Source: Caryophanales bacterium UBA970 (lineage in GTDB: Bacteria; Bacillota_I; Bacilli_A; RFN20; CAG-826). From it: 11,921 bases of DNA. Location of the stretch: assembly GCA_002292805.1 (NCBI GenBank), contig DBCA01000004.1, positions 884-12,804 on the forward strand. The letters are read 5' to 3'. The translations under genes and the position numbers were made by a program. Position 1 is the stretch's first letter, and every line of letters starts with the position of its first letter. Below are positions 2,320 through 11,921 of this stretch, piece by piece. The notes below the pieces were generated by a model that saw nothing but the letters and a program-made list of their open reading frames with translations, was not told the DNA's origin and did not search any database.

Positions 2320-2348
2320 AAAGTGTTAGAAACAACAAATCATTGAAC

Positions 2349-2356
2349 AGGGAGGT
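2349..2356 (+). promoter_or_regulatory. Shine-Dalgarno site fixing the ATPase start
   Basis: AGGGAGGT lies 7 bases before the ATG at 2364. An in-frame TTG at 2343 lies upstream of this site and is therefore rejected as the start. Confidence 0.88.
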
Positions 2357-2363
2357 TCATCGA

Positions 2364-3461
2364 ATGGAAGTGAAGTTACAACAGCTGACAAAAATCTTCG
2401 CCTCAAAGAAAGCAGAACCAGTTTATGCCGTTAAGCAGATGAATCTAACAATACCTTCAGGTAAGTTGGTTGGTCTATTAGGACCTTCTGGATGCGGTAA
2501 ATCAACAACACTTTATATGATTGCCGGTTTACATCGGCCCAACGAGGGGCGGATTTTTTTTGGTGATAGTGACGTGACCGATATCCCTCCTGAAAATCGC
2601 GGGATTGGTCTTGTTTTTCAAAATTATGCACTATATCCTCACTTTAGCGTGCGCCAAAACATCATGTTTCCTTTAGAAAATGTCAAAGATTATCAAGATC
2701 CAACCACTGGGGAAAAGCGCAGATACACCAAACAAGAAATGGAAGCGATTGTTTTTAAGACTGCAAGACTTGTGGATATTGAAAAATTATTAGAACGAAA
2801 ACCAAAGCAATTATCTGGCGGTCAACAACAACGGGTGGCAATTGCCCGGGCCCTTTCAAAATCACCCCGCGTCCTTTTGTTAGATGAACCTTTATCTAAT
2901 CTCGATGCTCGCTTACGTTTACAAACTCGTGAAGAAATTAAACGGATTCAAAGAGAAACTGGTGTCACTACCATCTTTGTTACCCACGATCAAGAAGAAG
3001 CTATGTCCATCTCTGATTTTATTGTTGTGATGGAAAACGGGATTGTTCAACAAGTGGATGAACCCCAACAAGTGTATGAAAATCCAATCAATTTATTTGT
3101 AGCAAAGTTTTTAGGTTCACCTGCAATTAATATTCTTGATGGTGAGATTATCAACGGTAAATTGATGCTCCAAGGTAAGGTATTTGATGAAGGTTATACG
3201 AGTAATGGAATGGTTAAGGTTGGCATTCGTCCTGAACATTTCACCATCAATGGAATCATGAAGCAACAATTACAAGTCGACATTGACTATGTTGAACACA
3301 TCGGCCGAGATATTTCCATTATTGGAAAAGTCAAAGAAACAAAGAATCGTTTGCGGATCATTGTCTCAAGTGAATTTAAAAATCAAGCTGAGGCGAAAAC
3401 TGTTCAATTTGGAATTAAAAAATTCTTTGTCTTTAATGGGGCGGGAGAAAGGATTAAATAA
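2364..3461 (+). CDS. ABC transporter ATPase, MalK/UgpC/MsmX type
   Basis: This is the ATP-hydrolysing subunit of a CUT1-type (sugar-class) importer, working as a dimer on the cytoplasmic face with the two permeases encoded next. The 365-residue protein has Walker A GPSGCGKST (40-48), Q-loop Q86 in VFQNYALYPH, signature LSGGQQQRVAIARAL (150-164), Walker B VLLLDEP (170-176), D-loop NLDAR, and switch histidine H208 in THDQEEAMS. The C-terminal third carries the regulatory TOBE-type region (VGIRPEHF), typical of this subfamily. A short polar insertion (about 107-128) lies between Q-loop and signature. Its stop abuts the permease start directly, so the genes are co-translated. MsmX-like ATPases can serve several importers, so the ATPase does not define the substrate; the operon context does. 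The symbol is left blank for that reason. Confidence 0.95.
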   Translation: MEVKLQQLTKIFASKKAEPVYAVKQMNLTIPSGKLVGLLGPSGCGKSTTLYMIAGLHRPNEGRIFFGDSDVTDIPPENRGIGLVFQNYALYPHFSVRQNIMFPLENVKDYQDPTTGEKRRYTKQEMEAIVFKTARLVDIEKLLERKPKQLSGGQQQRVAIARALSKSPRVLLLDEPLSNLDARLRLQTREEIKRIQRETGVTTIFVTHDQEEAMSISDFIVVMENGIVQQVDEPQQVYENPINLFVAKFLGSPAINILDGEIINGKLMLQGKVFDEGYTSNGMVKVGIRPEHFTINGIMKQQLQVDIDYVEHIGRDISIIGKVKETKNRLRIIVSSEFKNQAEAKTVQFGIKKFFVFNGAGERIK

Positions 3462-4409
3462 ATGCTTGAACATAAGCGGGATGGTTGGAAAGCAACCATT
3501 GCATTATTTCCTGCCTTTATTCTTTTAACCGTTTTTATTTTATTCCCGATGCTCAATACCTTTTTGCTTTCGTTCATGTCAAACTTTGCTTGGGCTCCCG
3601 GCGCAGGTTTGTGGCTATTTGGCAATACGTTTGATTTATTCCCTTCCCTTGGCAATTACATCGCCGTGTTGGCTGATCCAGTGTTTCGTGATGCGTTGTT
3701 TAACACCGTCTTGTTGGTGATCATCTCGGTGCCTTTATCCATCATTGTTTCCTTGATCATTGCCGTTGCCTTGTATAACGTCAAATTTTTAAAAGGGTTT
3801 TATCAAACGATTTTTTTCCTTCCTTATGTGACCAACGGTATTGCCTTAGGCATGGTATTTAATGTCATTTTTTCAAAATATAATTCAGGGCTTATGAATC
3901 AATTTTTGATGACCTTGGGTTTGATTAGTGCCGATAACCCTATCAACTGGGTTGGCGCTGATGGTGCAACCAAGTTAGCAATGGCCTTTGTCTTGATTGT
4001 TTATTTTTTATGGAATGGATTAGCATTTAAAATCTTAGTGTTTTTATCAGGGTTGGCAAGTATTGATAAACAATATTATGATGCCGCTCGAATTGATGGT
4101 GCGGATCGACGAACCATCTTTAATCGAATTACGGTTCCTTTACTATCTCCACAAATTCTTTATATCACCATCACCAGTTTCATAGGAGCGTTTAAAGTCT
4201 ATGCTTCCGTCATCAGTATTTTTGGGCGCGGTCCGTTTAATTTCGGAGGATCTACAGGATTAACGTGGGTTACCGTGGTTGGCTATGTTTATCGCGACAT
4301 GCGGACCGATACGGGTCGAGCGGCGGCAGGTTCCATGGTCTTGTTAATCATTATTTTAGCGATTACTGCAATTCAATTTGCCGTAAGTAAAAAGCGGATT
4401 CATTACTAG
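3462..4409 (+). CDS. ABC transporter permease, MalF/UgpA type
   Basis: First transmembrane subunit of the CUT1-type importer, 315 residues. About six hydrophobic segments are visible (about 13-35, 80-105, 113-137, 170-195, 228-250 and 287-308). The cytoplasmic EAA loop that docks onto the ATPase is YYDAARIDGADRRTIFNRI (205-223), followed by VPLLSP. The ATG follows the ATPase stop with no gap, and an AGAAAGGA ribosome site lies inside the end of the upstream gene, implying coupled translation. The next permease begins 10 bases after its stop. The extra N-terminal helices of long MalF proteins are absent, as in UgpA-like members. Family is clear; the substrate cannot be read from it. Confidence 0.93.
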   Translation: MLEHKRDGWKATIALFPAFILLTVFILFPMLNTFLLSFMSNFAWAPGAGLWLFGNTFDLFPSLGNYIAVLADPVFRDALFNTVLLVIISVPLSIIVSLIIAVALYNVKFLKGFYQTIFFLPYVTNGIALGMVFNVIFSKYNSGLMNQFLMTLGLISADNPINWVGADGATKLAMAFVLIVYFLWNGLAFKILVFLSGLASIDKQYYDAARIDGADRRTIFNRITVPLLSPQILYITITSFIGAFKVYASVISIFGRGPFNFGGSTGLTWVTVVGYVYRDMRTDTGRAAAGSMVLLIIILAITAIQFAVSKKRIHY

Positions 4410-4413
4410 GAGG
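4407..4413 (+). promoter_or_regulatory. Shine-Dalgarno site overlapping the MalF-type stop codon
   Basis: TAGGAGG uses the TAG stop of the upstream permease as its first three bases. It lies 6 bases before the ATG at 4420 and abuts the earlier in-frame ATG at 4414, so 4420 is the better start. Confidence 0.85.
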
Positions 4414-4419
4414 ATGATT

Positions 4420-5319
4420 ATGGAAAGAGAATTATACTTTGCCTCAACTTCAGAATTAAAAAAATTTAAGCGTAAAAAATTCTTTTCTAACCTTGGTTTG
4501 TATGCTTTCTTAACCTTGGTCGCCGTCTTTATCTTGATTCCTTTTTATTGGATGTTAATTACAGCCTTCAAAACCAACGGATTAATTGAACTCGAAGAAA
4601 CCACAGGTGTTTTCTATTTCTTTCCACCTGAAATTACGTTTGTTAATTTTATTCGTGTTTTTGGTGCCGCCAGTGATGTTAACTTTGGTCGGTATTATCT
4701 AAACACTATTTTTGTTGCATTGGTGACCATGGTCATGACTGTTGGGACCACGGTTCTTGCTTCCTTTGCCTTTGCAAGACTCAATTTCAAACTGAAAGAA
4801 CCTTTGTTTGCGCTTTTGATTGCCACAATGATGATTCCAGGAGAAATGATGGTCATCACAAATTTTCAGACAATTTCGATTTTAGATTGGCGTGACACAT
4901 TTCAAGCGTTGATTTTACCCTTTGGGATTTCTGTTTTTTATATTTTTTTTCTTCGGCAAACTTTTCAACAAATTCCTAACGAACTTTATTTAGCAGCGAA
5001 AGTAGACGGATACGGAGACTTCAAGTATTTGTGGAAAGTGATGATTCCAATGGCGATGCCAACAATCATCACCATTATCATTCTTGATATGATGGGAACT
5101 TGGAATGCTTATGTGTGGCCGCAACTCGTCACGGAAAGTAAAGATATGTTGATGGTTTCGAATGGGTTAATGAGTATTTTTCAATCTTCAGAATTTGCGA
5201 ATTGGAATAACATCAAGTTAGCAGCGAGCGTGGTCGTGACAACTCCTTTATTAATTGTGTTTATTCTCTTTAAAAACTACATCATGCGGGGTGTATCAAG
5301 AAGTGGCATCAAAGGATAG
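4420..5319 (+). CDS. ABC transporter permease, MalG/UgpE type
   Basis: Second transmembrane subunit of the importer, 299 residues from the preferred ATG at 4420. An in-frame ATG at 4414 would add two residues but leaves no room for the ribosome site. A basic cytoplasmic N-terminus (KKFKRKKF, 14-21) precedes the first helix (about 24-49); further helices lie at about 93-120, 127-150, 160-180, 212-233 and 270-290. The EAA loop is ELYLAAKVDGYGDFKYLWKV (188-207), followed by MIPMAMP. It forms the heterodimeric channel with the MalF-type subunit encoded just before it. A 53-base gap follows, holding a second promoter, before the binding-protein gene. Confidence 0.94.
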   Translation: MERELYFASTSELKKFKRKKFFSNLGLYAFLTLVAVFILIPFYWMLITAFKTNGLIELEETTGVFYFFPPEITFVNFIRVFGAASDVNFGRYYLNTIFVALVTMVMTVGTTVLASFAFARLNFKLKEPLFALLIATMMIPGEMMVITNFQTISILDWRDTFQALILPFGISVFYIFFLRQTFQQIPNELYLAAKVDGYGDFKYLWKVMIPMAMPTIITIIILDMMGTWNAYVWPQLVTESKDMLMVSNGLMSIFQSSEFANWNNIKLAASVVVTTPLLIVFILFKNYIMRGVSRSGIKG

Positions 5320-5337
5320 TTTTTCCCCCTCGACTTG

Positions 5338-5346
5338 TGCGATAAT
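5338..5346 (+). promoter_or_regulatory. Extended -10 promoter inside the operon, ahead of the binding protein
   Basis: TG-C-GATAAT matches the extended -10 pattern; no good -35 box is seen, which extended -10 promoters tolerate. The predicted start near 5353 lies just before a strong ribosome site. It could raise binding-protein and nuclease output above that of the membrane subunits. Confidence 0.5.
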
Positions 5347-5358
5347 TATTTTGGAAAT

Positions 5359-5365
5359 AAAGGAG
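5359..5365 (+). promoter_or_regulatory. Shine-Dalgarno site fixing the binding-protein start
   Basis: AAAGGAG lies 7 bases before the ATG at 5373 but only 1 base before the in-frame ATG at 5367, so 5373 is chosen. Confidence 0.82.
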
Positions 5366-5372
5366 CATGTAT

Positions 5373-6962
5373 ATGCTAAATAAACATCAACTGATGGTCG
5401 CTGTCTCGAGCACATTCGCGTTCGTCGTTGCCGGTTGTTCTAATGTGGCAACGTTTCAAGTGCAATTGCCAACCCTTGTGCCTTTAGCAGAGTTTAATGA
5501 GCGTTATACAGAATCTAGTCCGATCGAAATTAATTTTTGGACTGGTTTTGGCGCAGCCGTTTCTACGTCGATTGAAGACGGGATTACTCAATTCCAATCA
5601 ATTTATCCTAATATCAAGGTCACCCATACATCAAAAGGTGGGTATGACAATCTTTTGAAGGCAATTAATTTATCGGTCACATCGAGAACCTATCCTGATG
5701 TGGCGATTGGTTATCCTGACCATTTTGCGAATTACATCAGAAGTTCAATTCAACTTGCGTTAGATCCGTTGATTGCCAGTAGCGAATACGGATTGGATAT
5801 CGATGATTTTGTTGCTGATTACATGGGCGAAAATCGCTCGTTCCAATTTGATGAACAAGGTGACCCATATACCCTTGGACTTCCATTTAATAAGTCGACC
5901 GAAGTGATGGTCGCGAACCAAACCTTCTTTGATTTTATGGCCTCATTAGACGCAACCATCGTCGTTCCCCAAACCTGGGATCAAGTGAGAGCCGCTGGAG
6001 AAAAAATACTTGATCGGATGGCAACCACCGTCGATGTGGATGGTGACGCAAGCGTTTATGGTAAACAAGTTGTTTTCTCGAGTGATCTCAATGAATACCG
6101 AGTCATTAAAAGTGGTGCGACAGCCCCAGTTGGTTTTGCATTAGTCTTAGATTTTTCTGCGGTCATCGACACCGAGTTTTATCCATTTTCTTATGATTCG
6201 ATGGCAAACTTCTTTATCACTGCGGTCCGGCAATGGGGTGGAACCTATACGGAAATGGGTGAAAATATTACCCGTGGGTATATTCGTTTTAACACGCCAG
6301 AAATCGCTACCATGCTTGAATATTTTAAAGATTTGCATGAAGATAAAATTTTAGCGATACCCATCACCTTTGGACAACCTCAATATAACTCCATTCCGTT
6401 CCGTGGCAATAAATCGGTCCTTACCATTTCTTCTTCGGCTGGTGTGTTTAATAACGTCCCATCTGCCGGTGCATTTGAGGTCACCATTCATCCAGTTCCT
6501 TATCAAAATGCGTCAAGAAAATATGTTATTTCTCAAGGAACCAACATGGCGCTATTCACCAATCGGAATGCGGATCGGGTCCTTGCCTCTTGGTTATTTA
6601 TGCGCTACATGACCACCAATCCTGGCAATACTCAATTTTCAGTGTCAGCCGGTTATTATCCCTCCACTGAATCAGGATTAGCATCCGCCTTCTATCAAGG
6701 TTATTTAGGTGCGACTGAAGTAAACAGCAATGACAAATCAAAAATTGACTCCGCGAAAGTCAATGCCAATGTCTACGGTCAAGCCTCACAAAATTGGATT
6801 AAATTCGTTGACCCTGGTTTTGTGGGTAGTAGCGATATTCGCGAACAACTTGATACTGCCTTTCCAATCTTACTTTATGGTCGTGATGGCACAACCTTGA
6901 CAGCCCAAGAAGTACTAGACTATCTTGAATCGAACCTTTCGCGTTACGTTGAGGCGGTCTAA
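5373..6962 (+). CDS. Extracellular solute-binding lipoprotein, family 1 (UgpB/MalE type)
   Basis: Substrate-capturing lipoprotein for the importer encoded upstream. A short signal peptide ends in the lipobox VAGC, so the mature protein is anchored by the lipid-modified Cys. After the linker comes INFWTGFG, the first strand of the binding fold, then SIEDGITQFQSIYPNIKV. A C-terminal block of family-1 binding proteins (QGTNMALFTNRNADRVLASW, then FMRYMTTNP and SAGYYPSTESG) closes the match. At 529 residues it is clearly longer than the usual 400-450; extra sequence appears in the middle around the DVDGDASVYGKQ region, whose DVDGDASVYG could be a small metal-binding or surface loop. Its TAA overlaps the nuclease ATG (TAATG), tying the two products together. 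The fold is clear; the ligand is unknown, with nucleic-acid breakdown products suggested only by context. Confidence 0.92.
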   Translation: MLNKHQLMVAVSSTFAFVVAGCSNVATFQVQLPTLVPLAEFNERYTESSPIEINFWTGFGAAVSTSIEDGITQFQSIYPNIKVTHTSKGGYDNLLKAINLSVTSRTYPDVAIGYPDHFANYIRSSIQLALDPLIASSEYGLDIDDFVADYMGENRSFQFDEQGDPYTLGLPFNKSTEVMVANQTFFDFMASLDATIVVPQTWDQVRAAGEKILDRMATTVDVDGDASVYGKQVVFSSDLNEYRVIKSGATAPVGFALVLDFSAVIDTEFYPFSYDSMANFFITAVRQWGGTYTEMGENITRGYIRFNTPEIATMLEYFKDLHEDKILAIPITFGQPQYNSIPFRGNKSVLTISSSAGVFNNVPSAGAFEVTIHPVPYQNASRKYVISQGTNMALFTNRNADRVLASWLFMRYMTTNPGNTQFSVSAGYYPSTESGLASAFYQGYLGATEVNSNDKSKIDSAKVNANVYGQASQNWIKFVDPGFVGSSDIREQLDTAFPILLYGRDGTTLTAQEVLDYLESNLSRYVEAV

Positions 6963-8407
6963 TGAAATTAGTTCGTAACCTCCCATTTCTTTTTTTAATC
7001 GCAATGGTTGGGGCGTGCACCCCATCCTCGGCGAGTAGTGCGCTACCGTCCTTAACCCCTGCGGATTTAAACACGCAATATACTGATGCTTTAAAATTAA
7101 CTGAATCTTTTACTGGCAAGGATTTTATTGAAGATGGGATTGGAGAAGTCACCTTAAGAAGCACCACCGACGGCGATACCGCTCGGTTTAATGTAGGAGA
7201 TATTAATATTGCTGTCCGCTTTTTGGGCATCAATACCCCAGAGTCGACTGGAAAAATTCAACCTTGGGGCAATGCCGCGTCTACATTTACTGCTAGCATC
7301 CTCACCACAGCAAGTCGAATTGTGTTAATCAATGACGTCGATTTGTTTGGCCAAAAAGATTCTTCTGGATCACGCTTTTTAGGATTTGTCTGGTATCAAC
7401 CTGCATCAGGTGGGGATTTTCGCTTGCTCAATTTAGAGATTGTTGAACAGGCATTTTCTGAATCACTTTTGTTTAACGATTCGCCACTTGTGCCTTACTT
7501 CGAATCCTTTCAAGCCGCGGGACAATATGCCCAACGGACGAAGGCAAGAATCTATGGTTTTCGTAATGACCCAAGTTTTGATTACACCGATAATGTTTAT
7601 GATGTGAGCATTCGGTTTGTCAGAAAAGCGTTTGGTAACACCATACCTTTAGAAGACAAAGAAGGCAATATCATCCTCAATGAAAATGAGGAGTCAACCT
7701 TATTTACGCTTTCGAATTCCACAAAATTAAGATTACAAGTTGTCGTCGTTGCCACGATTGGCTCGAATGCGATTTTACGTGATGTCTTTAATCCTGATGA
7801 GCAAGGCGACTATGCATCGATGTTTTTATTTACCCAATTCAGTGATCTTCCCTTTCGCCAACCAGGGGACGTGATTCAGTTGTACGCCAAAGCAACGAGC
7901 TTCAATAATAATGTGCAACTCACCGATCCGATCATGCAAACCTTTCATCCTTATTATCCGCTCACGTTGTTAACGCGACCCAGTAATCCCAACCACGACA
8001 CTTACTTATCGCAAAATGGCATGAGTGGTGATTATTTACCTTTTGATATGCGGACCACGGTGATTACCGATCGCGAAGATTTTACTTCGTATAACGGGTT
8101 CTTTGTCCGAGCCCGAATTGTCGTGAGAGCGCGGCCAACCTCGCCAGATGACGATATCACGGGTGATGTGACCTTAGGCGATTTCTTTAGAAAAGACGCC
8201 AACGACAACATGACCATTTATGCTTATTATGTCGGCACCGAAGTCTCCTTCAATATAAGAATTGACGGTCGCTTATTCCCTTATGTGCGGGAAACCAATT
8301 TTGCGATCGGGGGCACATATGACATCTCCGGGTATATTGCACCGTATTTCGACAATTACCAATTACAAATTCATAATGGTGTGGTCATCACACCTGTGAC
8401 TGCATAG
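6962..8407 (+). CDS. Surface thermonuclease (SNase-type) lipoprotein with C-terminal OB-like modules
   Basis: Predicted metal-dependent nuclease cutting DNA or RNA outside the cell, 481 residues. A signal peptide with lipobox VGAC (16-19) anchors it. Residues about 58-205 match the staphylococcal nuclease domain. TDGDT gives D70 and D72 (equivalent to D19 and D21), VRFLGINTPES gives R86 and E94 (R35 and E43), and GSRFLGFVWY gives R138 (R87). The three main catalytic residues are therefore intact. The metal ligand D40 is replaced by N91. The C-terminal half holds two beta-rich regions (about 254-328 and 376-477) that look like OB folds; GDVIQLYAKATSFNNNVQL resembles a segment of the next protein. 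A ribosome site GAGG (6951-6954) lies in the upstream gene, and the start overlaps its stop. Mycoplasmas also carry SNase lipoproteins beside ABC transporter genes, as recalled from the literature, supporting a nutrient-scavenging role. Confidence 0.9.
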   Translation: MKLVRNLPFLFLIAMVGACTPSSASSALPSLTPADLNTQYTDALKLTESFTGKDFIEDGIGEVTLRSTTDGDTARFNVGDINIAVRFLGINTPESTGKIQPWGNAASTFTASILTTASRIVLINDVDLFGQKDSSGSRFLGFVWYQPASGGDFRLLNLEIVEQAFSESLLFNDSPLVPYFESFQAAGQYAQRTKARIYGFRNDPSFDYTDNVYDVSIRFVRKAFGNTIPLEDKEGNIILNENEESTLFTLSNSTKLRLQVVVVATIGSNAILRDVFNPDEQGDYASMFLFTQFSDLPFRQPGDVIQLYAKATSFNNNVQLTDPIMQTFHPYYPLTLLTRPSNPNHDTYLSQNGMSGDYLPFDMRTTVITDREDFTSYNGFFVRARIVVRARPTSPDDDITGDVTLGDFFRKDANDNMTIYAYYVGTEVSFNIRIDGRLFPYVRETNFAIGGTYDISGYIAPYFDNYQLQIHNGVVITPVTA

Positions 8408-8418
8408 GAGGTCATGAT

Positions 8419-9597
8419 ATGCACTTGTCAAAAAACCTTTTTGTCGCTGGCTTGAGTTTAGGGTTAATCCTTGCTAGTTGTGGAGGCAATGCCAACCAAG
8501 ATTTATTGGAAAGTACCTTAGACTCCACCCCAACCGTTGCGGTCAAAAGTGATGGCCAAACGTTAGAGATTGGTTTTCGCCAAACCGTGGAAGGGACGCT
8601 TACCTTAATTCGCACCCTTGCAGCTTTTGGGGAAACTGAGGATCATCCCGTTAATTTAACGTGGACAGTTATAGAATCCGCGAGTCAATATTTTAATTTT
8701 CGCGAAGCGACCCTTGAAGGGAACGCGGTCTATAACGTTGGCATTATTCAACCTTTGTTTGGCACTGCTGCCGTGGATGTGACCTTAATGATGGCCGCAT
8801 CGATGACCATTGCGACCACAGAGTATACGTCAACCCGTGAATACTTATTGACGATCAATCCTGAACCTGTTGACTATTCGGCGACCCCTTTGATTCCATT
8901 GTCGATTGACTTTGCTCGTAACGCCGATGGAACCTACGTCAATGAGATTTTACAAAGTGCTTCTCGCTCGGATCGTCAAGCGCCGATTATTAGGGCCCGC
9001 GGATACGTTTCAGGTATTTTTTCGGACTGGAATACGTCTTATATCACAAGTGGTGAATATGGTTTGGCCTTATTCCGAACCGATATTGGTTATCGTGATG
9101 CCTTTGCCATCGGCGACTATATCGAAGTGATTGGTGAGGCAGCTACCTTCAATGGCTCGCGGCAAATTGCCTGGATCACTTCCATTAAAATCCTTCCGCC
9201 TCTTGGGGAAGAACCGGTCATTCGCCAACTTAACGCGGGTAACTTTGCTTCGACCTCGATCGCCAACAATGGACAACGGTTTCGTGATGGTTCACTTGTC
9301 CGTTTAGGAAACCTACAATTTGATAGTGTGACTTCCGGTGCGCCAACGTCGGGACCGATGATTGGGTCTGCCAACCATTTGGCGTTGCGCTTCAAAGTGT
9401 TTGATGGTGCGACCTCGTATAACGTTGCCGCCTATTTAAACTACCGCCTTGGGGTGACCAAACGGCAAGCGATTTATGATTTACTACTTCAGGCCCCTGT
9501 TGGTTCTGATCAATTCTTAGTCTATCAAGGGTTGATGGGTTGGTCGTTTGGTCCGCAATTGATGATTTTAGAAGTTAGTGATTTTAACATTCAATAG
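8419..9597 (+). CDS. Lipoprotein with Ig-like and OB-like regions
   Basis: No named family is certain. The 392-residue protein has a signal peptide with lipobox LASC (18-21), so it is a surface lipoprotein. Residues about 40-148 look like a bacterial Ig-like beta-sandwich (VNLTWTVIESASQYFNF is typical of such domains). Residues about 186-260 look like an OB fold: IIRARGYVSGIF, then GDYIEVIGEAATFNGSRQIA, parallel to GDVIQLYAKATSFNNNVQL in the preceding nuclease. The rest (about 265-392) is beta-rich, possibly another OB-type unit (GSLVRLGNLQF, GLMGWSFGPQL). TAGGAGG (8405-8411), overlapping the nuclease TAG stop, sits 7 bases before the ATG. No catalytic motif was seen. It is last in the operon, before a strong terminator. 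A role in holding nucleic acid near the nuclease and importer is inferred. Confidence 0.78.
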   Translation: MHLSKNLFVAGLSLGLILASCGGNANQDLLESTLDSTPTVAVKSDGQTLEIGFRQTVEGTLTLIRTLAAFGETEDHPVNLTWTVIESASQYFNFREATLEGNAVYNVGIIQPLFGTAAVDVTLMMAASMTIATTEYTSTREYLLTINPEPVDYSATPLIPLSIDFARNADGTYVNEILQSASRSDRQAPIIRARGYVSGIFSDWNTSYITSGEYGLALFRTDIGYRDAFAIGDYIEVIGEAATFNGSRQIAWITSIKILPPLGEEPVIRQLNAGNFASTSIANNGQRFRDGSLVRLGNLQFDSVTSGAPTSGPMIGSANHLALRFKVFDGATSYNVAAYLNYRLGVTKRQAIYDLLLQAPVGSDQFLVYQGLMGWSFGPQLMILEVSDFNIQ

Positions 9598-9798: not shown

Positions 9799-9904
9799 AT
9801 GGATGACTATCTTCCATTCATAAAAATATCCGATAAAATCAAGCTATTTTTAAATGATGACAAACAATCCTTCATCCCCGTGAACGAATAGGGTGATTAT
9901 TCGC

Positions 9905-9910
9905 TACAAT
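9905..9910 (+). promoter_or_regulatory. -10 box of an apparently leaderless promoter for the winged-helix gene
   Basis: TACAAT is followed by exactly six bases and then the ATG at 9917, so the canonical start point coincides with the start codon. The -35 region is weak (TGAACG at 9881-9886 with an 18-base spacer). No usable Shine-Dalgarno site precedes the ATG, because AGAAG ends only one base before it. Confidence 0.55.
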
Positions 9911-9916
9911 AGAAGT

Positions 9917-10315
9917 ATGGTCAAACGTCCAATCTATCAAAAAATATATCAAGCATTATCGACAACCTCACATAAATATGTGACCTCAGAGATGCTTGCC
10001 CAATCCATTGGGATCTATCCTGATGTTATCAATGATGCATTGTCTTTATTTAATCCTGTGGTCACGTTGGATGTGACCTTTAATTTATTAGAACTTTTAC
10101 CTTTGTTAGCAACCCATTTAGGCTCAAACAAAAACGTCAGACAAAAAAGTCATCGGCCTAGTTCAACGATTTTACCTTATGAGAATTTTTCAGATTTTGT
10201 TTACCAAAAAATGACGATGGCTGGCATTGTTGATAAAAGTTTACAACTCTCGGACAAAGATTTAAAGATGGCGAAGAAATTAATTGTTAACGAACTGAAA
10301 AGCAGGAAGAAATAA
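9917..10315 (+). CDS. Small putative winged-helix protein, Rex N-terminal-domain-like
   Basis: A 132-residue protein, not firmly identified. Residues about 1-68 resemble the N-terminal DNA-binding domain of the redox repressor Rex. RPIYQKIYQAL aligns with the RLPLYYRFL helix, YVTSEMLAQSIGIYPDVIND aligns with the VSSAELSDAVKVDSATIRRD recognition region, and a downstream stretch ending in LLELLPLL aligns with the helix that ends this domain. The arginines of the Rex recognition helix are replaced (DVINDALSLF), and no glycine-rich NAD-binding Rossmann domain follows. The C-terminal part (about 75-132) is instead basic and ends in KSRKK. It may bind DNA without redox sensing, or use the fold otherwise. 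A GTG at 9893 could add eight residues but lies upstream of the -10 box and lacks a ribosome site. The gene converges on tRNA-Pro with a 4-base gap and has no terminator of its own. Confidence 0.6.
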   Translation: MVKRPIYQKIYQALSTTSHKYVTSEMLAQSIGIYPDVINDALSLFNPVVTLDVTFNLLELLPLLATHLGSNKNVRQKSHRPSSTILPYENFSDFVYQKMTMAGIVDKSLQLSDKDLKMAKKLIVNELKSRKK

Positions 10316-10319
10316 AAAA

Positions 10320-10396
10320 TGGTCGGAACGATGAGATTCGAACTCACGACCTCTACCACCCCAAGGTAGCGCACTACCAAGCTGTGCTACGTCCCG
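10320..10396 (-). tRNA. tRNA-Pro (anticodon GGG)
   Basis: Read on the minus strand, the acceptor stem CGGGACG/CGTTCCG has one G-U pair, discriminator A and an encoded CCA (10320-10322). The D arm is GCAC/GTGC and the anticodon stem is CTACC/GGTAG with loop TTGGGGT, giving anticodon GGG followed by G37. The T loop is GTTCGAATC. The CCA runs straight into a T tract on the minus strand (TTTTTTATTT), the only visible stop signal. A GGG proline tRNA in addition to the usual UGG argues against a highly reduced genome. Confidence 0.97.
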
Positions 10397-10434: not shown

Positions 10435-10508
10435 TCCTTCGACCAATGATGAGAAAAAAACAAGCCTTTCTCTTGTCTATAAAGTATACGGGCAAGAACC
10501 GGTAACCC

Positions 10509-11015
10509 ATGCAAACCATTGAATGGCACACGTTTCAAGCTTTAAAAAGAGGTAATCACGAAGCATTTCATGAGGTTTATCAGCAATTTCGTAGTCTTCT
10601 GTATGTCATCATTCTCTCGATTGTGAAACATGAACCGACGGCCGAAGACCTTTTACAAGATACCTTTCTCAAGATTTATCAGAAAGTATCGACGTTAAAG
10701 GATCCTGACAAGTTTCAAGCTTGGGCGTCGATGATTGCTAAACACACTGCCTTGAACGAACTGAAGCGAAAAAAAGAAGAAGTTTGGCAAGAACAGTATG
10801 ATCAAACCAGCAGTGGAGAAGATGGGAAAAGTTTATTCCAAACGTGGCATAAGCATCTCAGTGATCAAGAGAATCTGGTGATTGCATATAAGATTGTCTA
10901 CGAATTAGGATTTGAAGACATTAGTAAGTTGATGGATGTGTCGTTATCTAACGTTCATCATCTCTACGAACAAGCCCTTGATAAATTAAAAGTGATGTAT
11001 CGGAAACAAAGATGA
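10509..11015 (+). CDS. ECF-type RNA polymerase sigma factor
   Basis: A 168-residue alternative sigma factor that should direct RNA polymerase to a small stress or envelope regulon. Region 2 (about 5-90) carries AEDLLQDTFLKIYQKVSTL (45-63), then FQAWASMIAKHTALNELKRK (69-88), the core-binding and -10-reading parts. A linker rich in charged and Ser/Gly residues (about 92-115) leads to region 4 (about 116-164), a helix-turn-helix ELGFEDISKLMDVSLSNVHH. In ECF proteins the recognition helix usually reads like TVKSRLHRA; here it is NVHHLYEQA, suggesting an unusual -35 target. There is no clear ribosome site, and an in-frame stop just upstream (10503-10505) excludes a longer start. Its TGA overlaps the ATG of the next gene as ATGA, the usual layout of an ECF sigma and its anti-sigma factor. 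Confidence 0.9.
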   Translation: MQTIEWHTFQALKRGNHEAFHEVYQQFRSLLYVIILSIVKHEPTAEDLLQDTFLKIYQKVSTLKDPDKFQAWASMIAKHTALNELKRKKEEVWQEQYDQTSSGEDGKSLFQTWHKHLSDQENLVIAYKIVYELGFEDISKLMDVSLSNVHHLYEQALDKLKVMYRKQR

Positions 11016-11921
11016 AACAAACCAAATTAGAAAAACAAATCAAACAAACTGGGCAAGCTTATTTTGACAAGCGTACGGCGCATTTGAATTTTCAAGGTGT
11101 CCTCAGTCAACCAAAACCTTGGTGGATGACCTTGGCCATGTGGGGAACCCCCGCGGCAGCCGTGGCAACCACGGTGACGGTCTTGGTTGCCGTGCTCATT
11201 GGGGCGATAGATCCCAATGGTTCCGTGCCACAAACCTTACGATCTCTGCAAGCTTTAAACGCGGTTAGTTTTCCTTCTTTTGATCAACGAGACCAAGCGG
11301 AAGATTTTTTAGAAGGTCAACCTCGTTACGAAACCTATCAGTCGCAAGTCAGTCAGTATTTTGCTCGCACCGCCCCGGACTTATTTTCAACCTCAAACAA
11401 TCTTGCTTATTCTCCACTTTCTGCTTTCATGGCCTTAACGTTACTCTTGGAAGCAGCGGATGGGCAAACCCGAGAAGCCCTTGCATCTATCCTCGCGGTT
11501 GAAGACATGGATCAACTTCGTGAAGAAACCAGTCAAGTTTTCATTGATACTTATTTAGAAGATAAAGAAACGTTGAATCAACAAGAAACGCTCGTCGCCA
11601 AATCTTTACTCGGCAATGGGGTGTTTGTTCGCGAAGACATCGAGGTCAACCCAACGTATCTAAATCGTTTAAGTAGTGACTATTTCACGGAAGTTTTTCA
11701 TACCGACTTTCAACCCGATGGTTTAGAAGACATGGCCAATTGGTTAAATCAAAAAACCTTTAATTTTTTAGACATGAAACCTTCGGATCTTGGATTAAAT
11801 CAAGACACAGCGATGGCGTTATTCAATACGTTTTATCTCAAAGCCAATTGGCTTGAAGCGTTTGATATCTTAACCACCCAAGGGACATTCACCAATTCAA
11901 GCAATCAAAGCAATGTCCGTT
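11012..11921 (+). CDS. Membrane-anchored serpin in anti-sigma position (3' end cut by window)
   Basis: The reading frame stays open to the window edge: 303 residues seen, no stop reached. Residues 1-38 are polar and basic and probably cytoplasmic. Residues about 41-66 (LAMWGTPAAAVATTVTVLVA and onward) form a single membrane helix. After a linker (67-105) comes a serpin domain, predicted outside. Serpin signatures are NLAYSPLSAFMALTLLLEAA (130-149) followed by DGQTREAL, then MANWLNQKTFNFL (241-253), matching the INxWVxxxT helix, and LFNTFYLKANWLEAF (270-284), matching LVNAIYFKGxWxxxF with conserved N272, K277 and W280. The reactive-centre loop lies beyond the window, so protease specificity and inhibitory ability cannot be judged. 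The ATGA overlap with the sigma gene implies coupled, near-equal synthesis. Serpin assignment is strong; the anti-sigma role is inferred from position and topology. It could instead be simply a surface protease inhibitor co-expressed with the sigma factor. Confidence 0.88.
   Translation, partial: MKQTKLEKQIKQTGQAYFDKRTAHLNFQGVLSQPKPWWMTLAMWGTPAAAVATTVTVLVAVLIGAIDPNGSVPQTLRSLQALNAVSFPSFDQRDQAEDFLEGQPRYETYQSQVSQYFARTAPDLFSTSNNLAYSPLSAFMALTLLLEAADGQTREALASILAVEDMDQLREETSQVFIDTYLEDKETLNQQETLVAKSLLGNGVFVREDIEVNPTYLNRLSSDYFTEVFHTDFQPDGLEDMANWLNQKTFNFLDMKPSDLGLNQDTAMALFNTFYLKANWLEAFDILTTQGTFTNSSNQSNVR

Follow-up and report, generated by a model that had tools for sequence, protein, structure and literature searches.

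In some Bacillota, a membrane protein with an outer serpin domain appears to keep an ECF sigma factor inactive. The evidence starts from a contig stretch of 11,921 nucleotides from Caryophanales bacterium UBA970 (hereafter the window), in which an ECF sigma factor gene overlaps a gene for a membrane-anchored serpin (TM-serpin), and the best explanation overall is likely that of an anti-sigma factor that uses a serpin as outer sensor. Judged separately, the assignment of the TM-serpin as an anti-sigma factor anchored in the membrane and bearing a serpin ectodomain is very probable on sequence grounds, and for the signal we infer a protease, a reading that is favoured to a modest degree. The serpin-type anti-sigma factor that a sequence-only reading of the window had proposed is supported by the recurrent pairing of the two genes, the predicted topology, the promoter and the presence of N-terminal domains (N-domains) with other ectodomains.

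Organization of the window locus

The sigma factor gene (10509..11015, + strand) encodes 168 aa and was assigned by Pfam, by its homologues and by profile alignment to SigW chains. Sigma70_r2 matched at 51.5 bits (cut-off 24) and Sigma70_r4 at 24.1 bits (cut-off 24.1), giving the ECF combination of regions 2 and 4 without region 3, and the sigma profile aligned along the full length of SigW chains in the PDB. Its stop codon overlaps the start of the TM-serpin gene by 4 bp, in an ATGA at 11012..11015 (+). The latter gene, the proposed anti-sigma factor identified by Pfam (11012..11921, +), is cut by the window end and is complete in P0001, a relative of 485 aa with 98% identity. The protein is predicted to comprise a cytoplasmic N-domain of residues 1-39 (11012..11128, +), proposed as the sigma-binding part from conservation in the window's clade and a related N-domain in locus L179; a single membrane helix at about residues 44-66 (11141..11209, +), placed by the hydropathy of relatives and modelled by AlphaFold at 47-62 with low confidence; and an outer domain with both a serpin fold and a Pfam Serpin match, the N-terminal half of which is visible in the window (residues 127-300; 11390..11911, +). 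The gene overlap and the combination of a short N-terminus, one helix and an external serpin, both described from the letters alone, were thus confirmed, the N-terminus measuring about 39 residues and the full gene being seen in P0001.

A tRNA-Pro(ggg) gene (10320..10396, - strand) is the upstream neighbour and a conserved landmark of the locus, adjoining the ECF operon also in L001, L002, L179, L045 and L046; the L001 locus (CAMBSI010000033.1) is syntenic with the window. The next ORFs after the operon in L001 and L002 presumably resemble uvrA and lgt, which indicates a chromosomal location. A viral origin was rejected on a single scan of viral contigs, in which no relative of the locus appeared. 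Elsewhere in the window, 2343-9597 holds an ABC transporter (ATPase, two permeases and a solute-binding lipoprotein with an SBP domain). After it come two lipoproteins, of which one carries a staphylococcal-nuclease domain and the other lacks a Pfam match. The 140-aa ORF at 9893-10315, between tRNA-Lys and tRNA-Pro, shows, at its N-terminus, weak similarity to the model of the redox repressor Rex (E 0.00036, 19.9 bits versus a cut-off of 130). The nearest genome contains a second ECF-like frame with one in-frame TGA (G001:C16:2457-2966), reflecting either decay or an assembly error.

Recurrence of the ECF/TM-serpin pairing

Serpins were searched in two orders and in one contig scan. The contig scan, for which the serpin family served as query, yielded 40 loci, with L001 at 61% and L002 at 57% identity and the other 38, labelled mostly Clostridia, at 23-28%; among 28 ORFs put to Pfam, the window sigma included, 21 matched Sigma70_r2. 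In the order of the L001 genome, the nearest relative, a search of 196 genomes gave serpin matches at 99 places in 79 genomes, 90 of which (30 + 60 loci) were taken into the survey. The places left out were G139:C38, G016:C57, G100:C3, G129:C17, two each of G110 and G015, and G139:C41:8-892, the last of which lies inside L043 and was counted there. L157 and L159 had no serpin frame by the serpin profile, and serpins cut by the locus end (L103|2, L105, L106|1, L112, L114) were excluded, which left 86 evaluable serpins. ECF genes were found by profile, comprising 24 of the 28 ORFs of A3 (the other four being plainly other genes) and 18 rows of A2, with three profile members lacking Pfam Sigma70_r2 confirmation. 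The N-region was taken as the longest possible stretch from start codon to hydrophobic segment and was scored blind to the ECF gene.

With a length cut chosen after the data had been seen (at least 28 versus at most 20 residues, and 24 in the tree analysis), all 43 serpins of the order with an N-region of at least 28 residues lie directly behind an ECF gene, versus 0 of the 43 with at most 20 residues, 32 of which were called lipoproteins. The gap between the two genes in the 43 pairs ranges from -26 to +37 and is often -4, and six of the fused serpins have a Cys in the membrane helix. Altogether, ECF/TM-serpin pairs occupy 70 rows representing 69 distinct loci (L060 is the same as L001), and a further sample of 40 Oscillospirales loci added seven fused pairs, so that a single-genome artefact is excluded. 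The recurrence directly behind ECF genes that is expected of a membrane-anchored ECF anti-sigma factor is therefore present, and the search suggested earlier, for ECF genes next to TM-serpins beyond one genome, had a positive outcome. These counts are lower bounds, because the Pfam search misses divergent serpins such as L182 (G033) and L188 (G072), ECF-linked transmembrane proteins that are serpins by profile, the one in G033 having no PF00079 match.

Since the surveyed rows are related and some are nearly identical, a serpin-domain tree was also used. It covers the order and Clostridia, was built by a quick method whose program flags many rows for uneven composition, and omits the keys L075 and L089 and serpins with fewer than 280 matched residues. 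Its 149 rows comprise 66 with both N-domain and ECF gene, 82 with neither, one with the N-region only (L096) and none with the ECF gene only; in other words, 66 of 67 long-N serpins and none of the 82 others are ECF-linked. The N-region of L096 is rather a signal peptide, to judge from its sequence, with an upstream in-frame start. Ten contrasts could be drawn on supported branches, nine concordant, none discordant and one neutral (sign test p 0.0039), and apart from the neutral one the link always changed together with the N-domain. Supported branches force the ECF link to have been gained or lost at least nine times, and the best tree needs 16 such changes. Four serpins (L119, L137, L146 and L010) have a membrane helix, a short N-region, no lipobox and no ECF neighbour; two of them, L119 and L137, lie inside the fused clade and look like losses of both N-domain and ECF gene.

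N-terminal domains and the probable exchange of ectodomains

Across 18 rows, the N-domain of the window's clade follows the consensus MKxxxLExxIKxSGxxxFxxxTxHLxF, whereas the family as a whole has several types of N-domain without a common motif, so that N-domain conservation holds clade by clade. The expected conservation of residues 1-40 was accordingly upheld within the window's clade, and the domain also recurs with a non-serpin ectodomain in genome G082, but it does not extend to a family-wide motif. The G082 locus (L179) is the corresponding operon, with the same tRNA-Pro(ggg) and the same promoter site; its sigma factor is 45% identical to that of the window over 161 columns, and its N-domain and helix are related to the window's (31% over 71 columns, E 9e-10 in a single comparison). 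In place of the serpin, its ectodomain is a beta-propeller (PF09826, 2.3e-71), and the N-domain is thus common to another ectodomain behind an ECF gene. The simplest reading of these sequences is that the ectodomain was exchanged in G082 and that sigma factor, N-domain, promoter and place were retained.

In the order, 98 genomes were also searched for ECF genes. In each of the 30 best-scoring loci, which are not a random sample, the next gene encodes a hydrophobic helix behind an N-region; six of these neighbours were recognised as serpins. Of 11 non-serpin neighbours put to Pfam, four matched RsgI_M, whose name refers to anti-sigma factors (L180, L187, L192, L199), one was a beta-propeller and six had no match. 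Recurrence of N-domains with various ectodomains behind ECF genes is the behaviour of modular anti-sigma factors.

Known anti-sigma models gave no match to the window protein. Serpin was its sole Pfam match at E <= 1e-3, with neither DUF4179 nor RsgI_M detected; DUF4179 was likewise absent from L001 and L002 at E <= 1, and no anti-sigma family model in Pfam or NCBIfam reached its cut-off with the N-domain. Weak matches of L026 to the NCBIfam CU044_5270 family (7.6e-5, 22.7 bits versus a cut-off of 100), to NCBIfam 'antisigma' (0.032) and to Pfam DUF3040 (0.0021) were not used. At about 39 residues, the N-domain is shorter than the 50 residues of a class I anti-sigma domain; the accessible part of PMC7406223 gives this limit and treats shorter domains as possible class II. 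Distances between sigma factors and N-domains are weakly correlated (partial rho 0.24, with 17 of 2000 permutations as high), no more strongly than those between sigma factors and serpins (partial rho 0.33). Both the lack of a model match and this weak correlation count against the anti-sigma reading, as does the diversity of N-domains across the family.

Promoter site and candidate regulon

A promoter-like site, RGAAAA-N15-TTGTCTATA, precedes the sigma gene in the window (10452..10481, +; no mismatch) as well as in L001, L002 and L179, and is presumed to be autoregulatory. The zero-mismatch site occurs once each in G001, G002 and G082, at the ECF operon. The sole one-mismatch site of G001 and that of G002 both lie 23 bp before membrane beta-propeller genes (L213:1554-3029, +, in G001; L212:2-1477, -, in G002), whose products match PF09826 at 4.2e-59 and 1.7e-59, respectively, and are similar to each other. 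In G082, three one-mismatch sites lie inside ORFs, and one further TTGTCTATA site was found in L220. At up to two mismatches, G001, G002 and G082 have 12, 9 and 14 sites versus 9, 5 and 5 in the reversed control, which makes two-mismatch sites meaningless by themselves. The G001 propeller protein is 30% identical to the L179 protein over 504 columns. The PF09826 domain thus forms the outer part of the ECF-adjacent protein in G082 and belongs to a presumed target in G001 and G002, with sensor and target swapping places.

Fused serpins of the wider order are preceded by a related site, CGACRAAA-N13-TYGTNTTATT, from whose consensus the window's own site differs at six positions. With a consensus derived from some of the sequences scored, up to two mismatches were found before 16 of 45 ECF genes, in none of the shuffles and before 1 of 43 non-ECF serpins; allowing four mismatches or fewer gave 21 of 45 and 6 of 43, with 1.0 in shuffles. 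In eight genomes, zero-mismatch sites of the order-wide pattern occur in three (G099, G141, G132), in every case at the ECF/serpin operon. Taken together, the promoter pattern looks like that of an autoregulated ECF gene, as far as sequence can indicate. Among the 43 non-ECF serpins, the lipoprotein serpins L124 (two mismatches) and L117 (three) have the site directly before the start codon, which is suggestive at most of their membership in the regulon.

Proposed mechanism and the reactive loop

According to the proposed mechanism, residues 1-39 would hold the sigma factor at the membrane. Outside the cell, a protease would attack the loop that the serpin exposes; in the window's clade it might also become trapped there. 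The altered serpin, or the complex formed, would make the membrane-proximal part of the protein accessible for a first cut, the candidate triggers being loop cleavage, loop insertion or a covalent complex. A second cut could be made by a site-2 (M50) protease; such a protease is present in all seven genomes searched and also in all 14 control genomes, and this step is therefore merely possible. The freed sigma factor would transcribe the operon to which it belongs; in the two nearest genomes it would probably also transcribe the membrane beta-propeller gene.

The reactive loop bears directly on the nature of the signal. An inhibitory hinge was defined by small residues at P12-P10, with Gly at P12 accepted. 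Such a hinge is present in 5 of 5 rows of the window's clade (AAA in P0001) and in 25 of 25 fused Clostridial serpins. In the order, 29 of 41 fused serpins lack it, often having Lys at P12, and so do 14 of 45 non-ECF serpins. Across the 18 rows of the window's clade, mean column identity is higher in the P15-P1 loop (88.5%) than in the domain (72.8%), a pattern of sequence that fits one constant target. Inspection of the hinge, as suggested earlier, therefore had a divided outcome, with small residues throughout the window's clade but not in most fused serpins of the order. Trapping is consequently not a general requirement, and loop insertion or trapping as the trigger is weakened for that part of the family; cleavage or binding may be enough in the order lineage, which, on its loop sequences, may only sense.

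The same hinge data lend some weight to an anti-sigma factor whose serpin has ceased to deal with proteases and, as a domain that binds a ligand or is sensitive to folding, reports something else, for instance small molecules or stress on the envelope. Besides the 29 fused order serpins without small P12-P10 residues, ligand-binding, non-inhibitory serpins are known, and corticosteroid- and thyroxine-binding globulin are among the fold matches. The uniformly small hinge residues of the window's clade and of the fused Clostridial serpins, together with a loop conserved above its domain, speak against this alternative, which is unlikely although it deserves serious consideration.

Relation to known regulatory systems

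An experimental precedent for the proposed anti-sigma serpin is a pair from Thermoanaerobacter tengcongensis: in the available sections of PMC3397946, residues 1-39 of Tt-TolB bind and inhibit the ECF factor Tt-RpoE1, which transcribes its own gene, and the Tt-TolB gene lies 2 bp behind the ECF gene and encodes a transmembrane helix at 39-61. The window pair shares with it the gene order, an N-domain of about 39 residues, one transmembrane helix and a large outer domain. The outer domain of Tt-TolB is of the TolB type, for which those sections state no signal, whereas that of the window protein is a serpin; the beta-propeller relative L179 connects these two types. A short sigma-binding region also belongs to a system of metal response in a proteobacterium.

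With respect to sensing, the proposal resembles SigV/RsiV of Bacillus subtilis, in which, by the excerpted text of PMC4183432 and PMC6066255, RsiV is a lysozyme receptor that undergoes two-step proteolysis. The window protein would likewise be a membrane anti-sigma factor with an outer domain for a host-type enzyme, which in the case of RsiV is lysozyme. RsiV has DUF4179 and a lysozyme-binding domain, whereas the window protein has no DUF4179 match. Modular outer sensors on a membrane anti-sigma factor are likewise found in SigI/RsgI of Clostridium thermocellum, as far as the excerpts of PMC3990059 and PMC3413522 describe them. That system differs in its SigI-type sigma factor and carbohydrate-binding sensors, and RsgI_M, lacking in the window protein, is present in other ECF neighbours of the order. 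Regulated expression of a bacterial serpin reportedly occurs in Bifidobacterium breve under two-component control. There the serpin is the output, whereas in the window system it is the proposed sensor.

No serpin anti-sigma factor was found in the literature searched, with a mention in the ECF reclassification (doi 10.1093/nar/gkaa1229) being possible. Membrane-anchored prokaryotic serpins are listed in PMC8233489, the available part of which reports no trend between location and function. If the proposed reading is true, a considerable part of the serpins of Bacillota would act as sensor or likely output in ECF signalling and not as inhibitors standing by themselves. Bacteria would then have a class of receptors for proteases outside the cell, much as RsiV is one for lysozyme. 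The serpin fold, characterised above all by a single irreversible change of conformation, could moreover be studied as a signalling device in a manageable system.

Serpin arrangements in Oscillospirales

Serpin loci of Oscillospirales fall into three arrangements. The 30 best-scoring loci include three serpins fused behind an ECF gene (L071, L073, L091) and seven lipoprotein serpins with an ECF gene 444-749 bp upstream and a transmembrane protein between (L072, L077, L079, L081, L083, L095, L100). Another 40 loci were hand-picked down the matches listed, a choice in which low-scoring serpins are not represented; seven are fused, nine have the serpin as third gene of an ECF/transmembrane protein/lipoprotein-serpin operon (L257, L261, L268, L269, L273-L276, L279) and 24 have neither, one of these (L267) with an ECF gene 1.1 kb upstream. 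On visual inspection, the middle gene of the nine operons encodes a hydrophobic helix preceded by a short N-region. Several of the Oscillospirales middle proteins start with a motif like LxDAIGxIDDxLI, and none of the five that were put to Pfam gave a match above cut-off. In pairs chosen by eye, N-domains of fused serpins match those of middle proteins, with 54% identity over 50 aa between fused L091 and L275 and 40% over 52 aa between L004 and L261.

The lipoprotein serpins that stand third behind an ECF gene, in 7 of the 30 best-scoring and 9 of the 40 further loci, are likely outputs, and they favour an alternative in which the TM-serpin, too, is a mere anchored protease inhibitor and an output of the sigma factor, its N-region serving only as an anchor and the sigma factor being controlled otherwise. 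An anchor, however, need not reach at least 28 residues only beside an ECF gene, N-domains are common to other ectodomains behind ECF genes, and L119 and L137 lack both N-domain and ECF gene although they lie in the fused clade, so that this alternative is decidedly improbable. Chance adjacency of two unrelated genes, for which no supporting point was found, is rejected as next to impossible on the 43/43 versus 0/43 distribution and on the contrasts, with the ECF link forced to have been gained or lost at least nine times, jointly with the N-domain in all contrasts drawn but one neutral.

A broader form of the anti-sigma reading, for which the chances appear evenly balanced, is that serpins in Bacillota became attached, on more than one occasion, to differing short anti-sigma modules and turned into a family of receptors of extracellular proteases, with loop cleavage or the irreversible shape change as the signal across the membrane. 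One large lineage would be purely sensing, its hinge having lost the inhibitory residues. Commensal gut Clostridia would read the protease activity of host or competitors through such receptors and respond by secreting serpins that operons of this type encode. A different gene order, serpin/ECF/transmembrane protein, was observed at G064:C31:6028-7128 and G079:C135:7951-9042 (L196 and L191), where the transmembrane protein has a short N-region and the serpin of G064 is a lipoprotein (L155).
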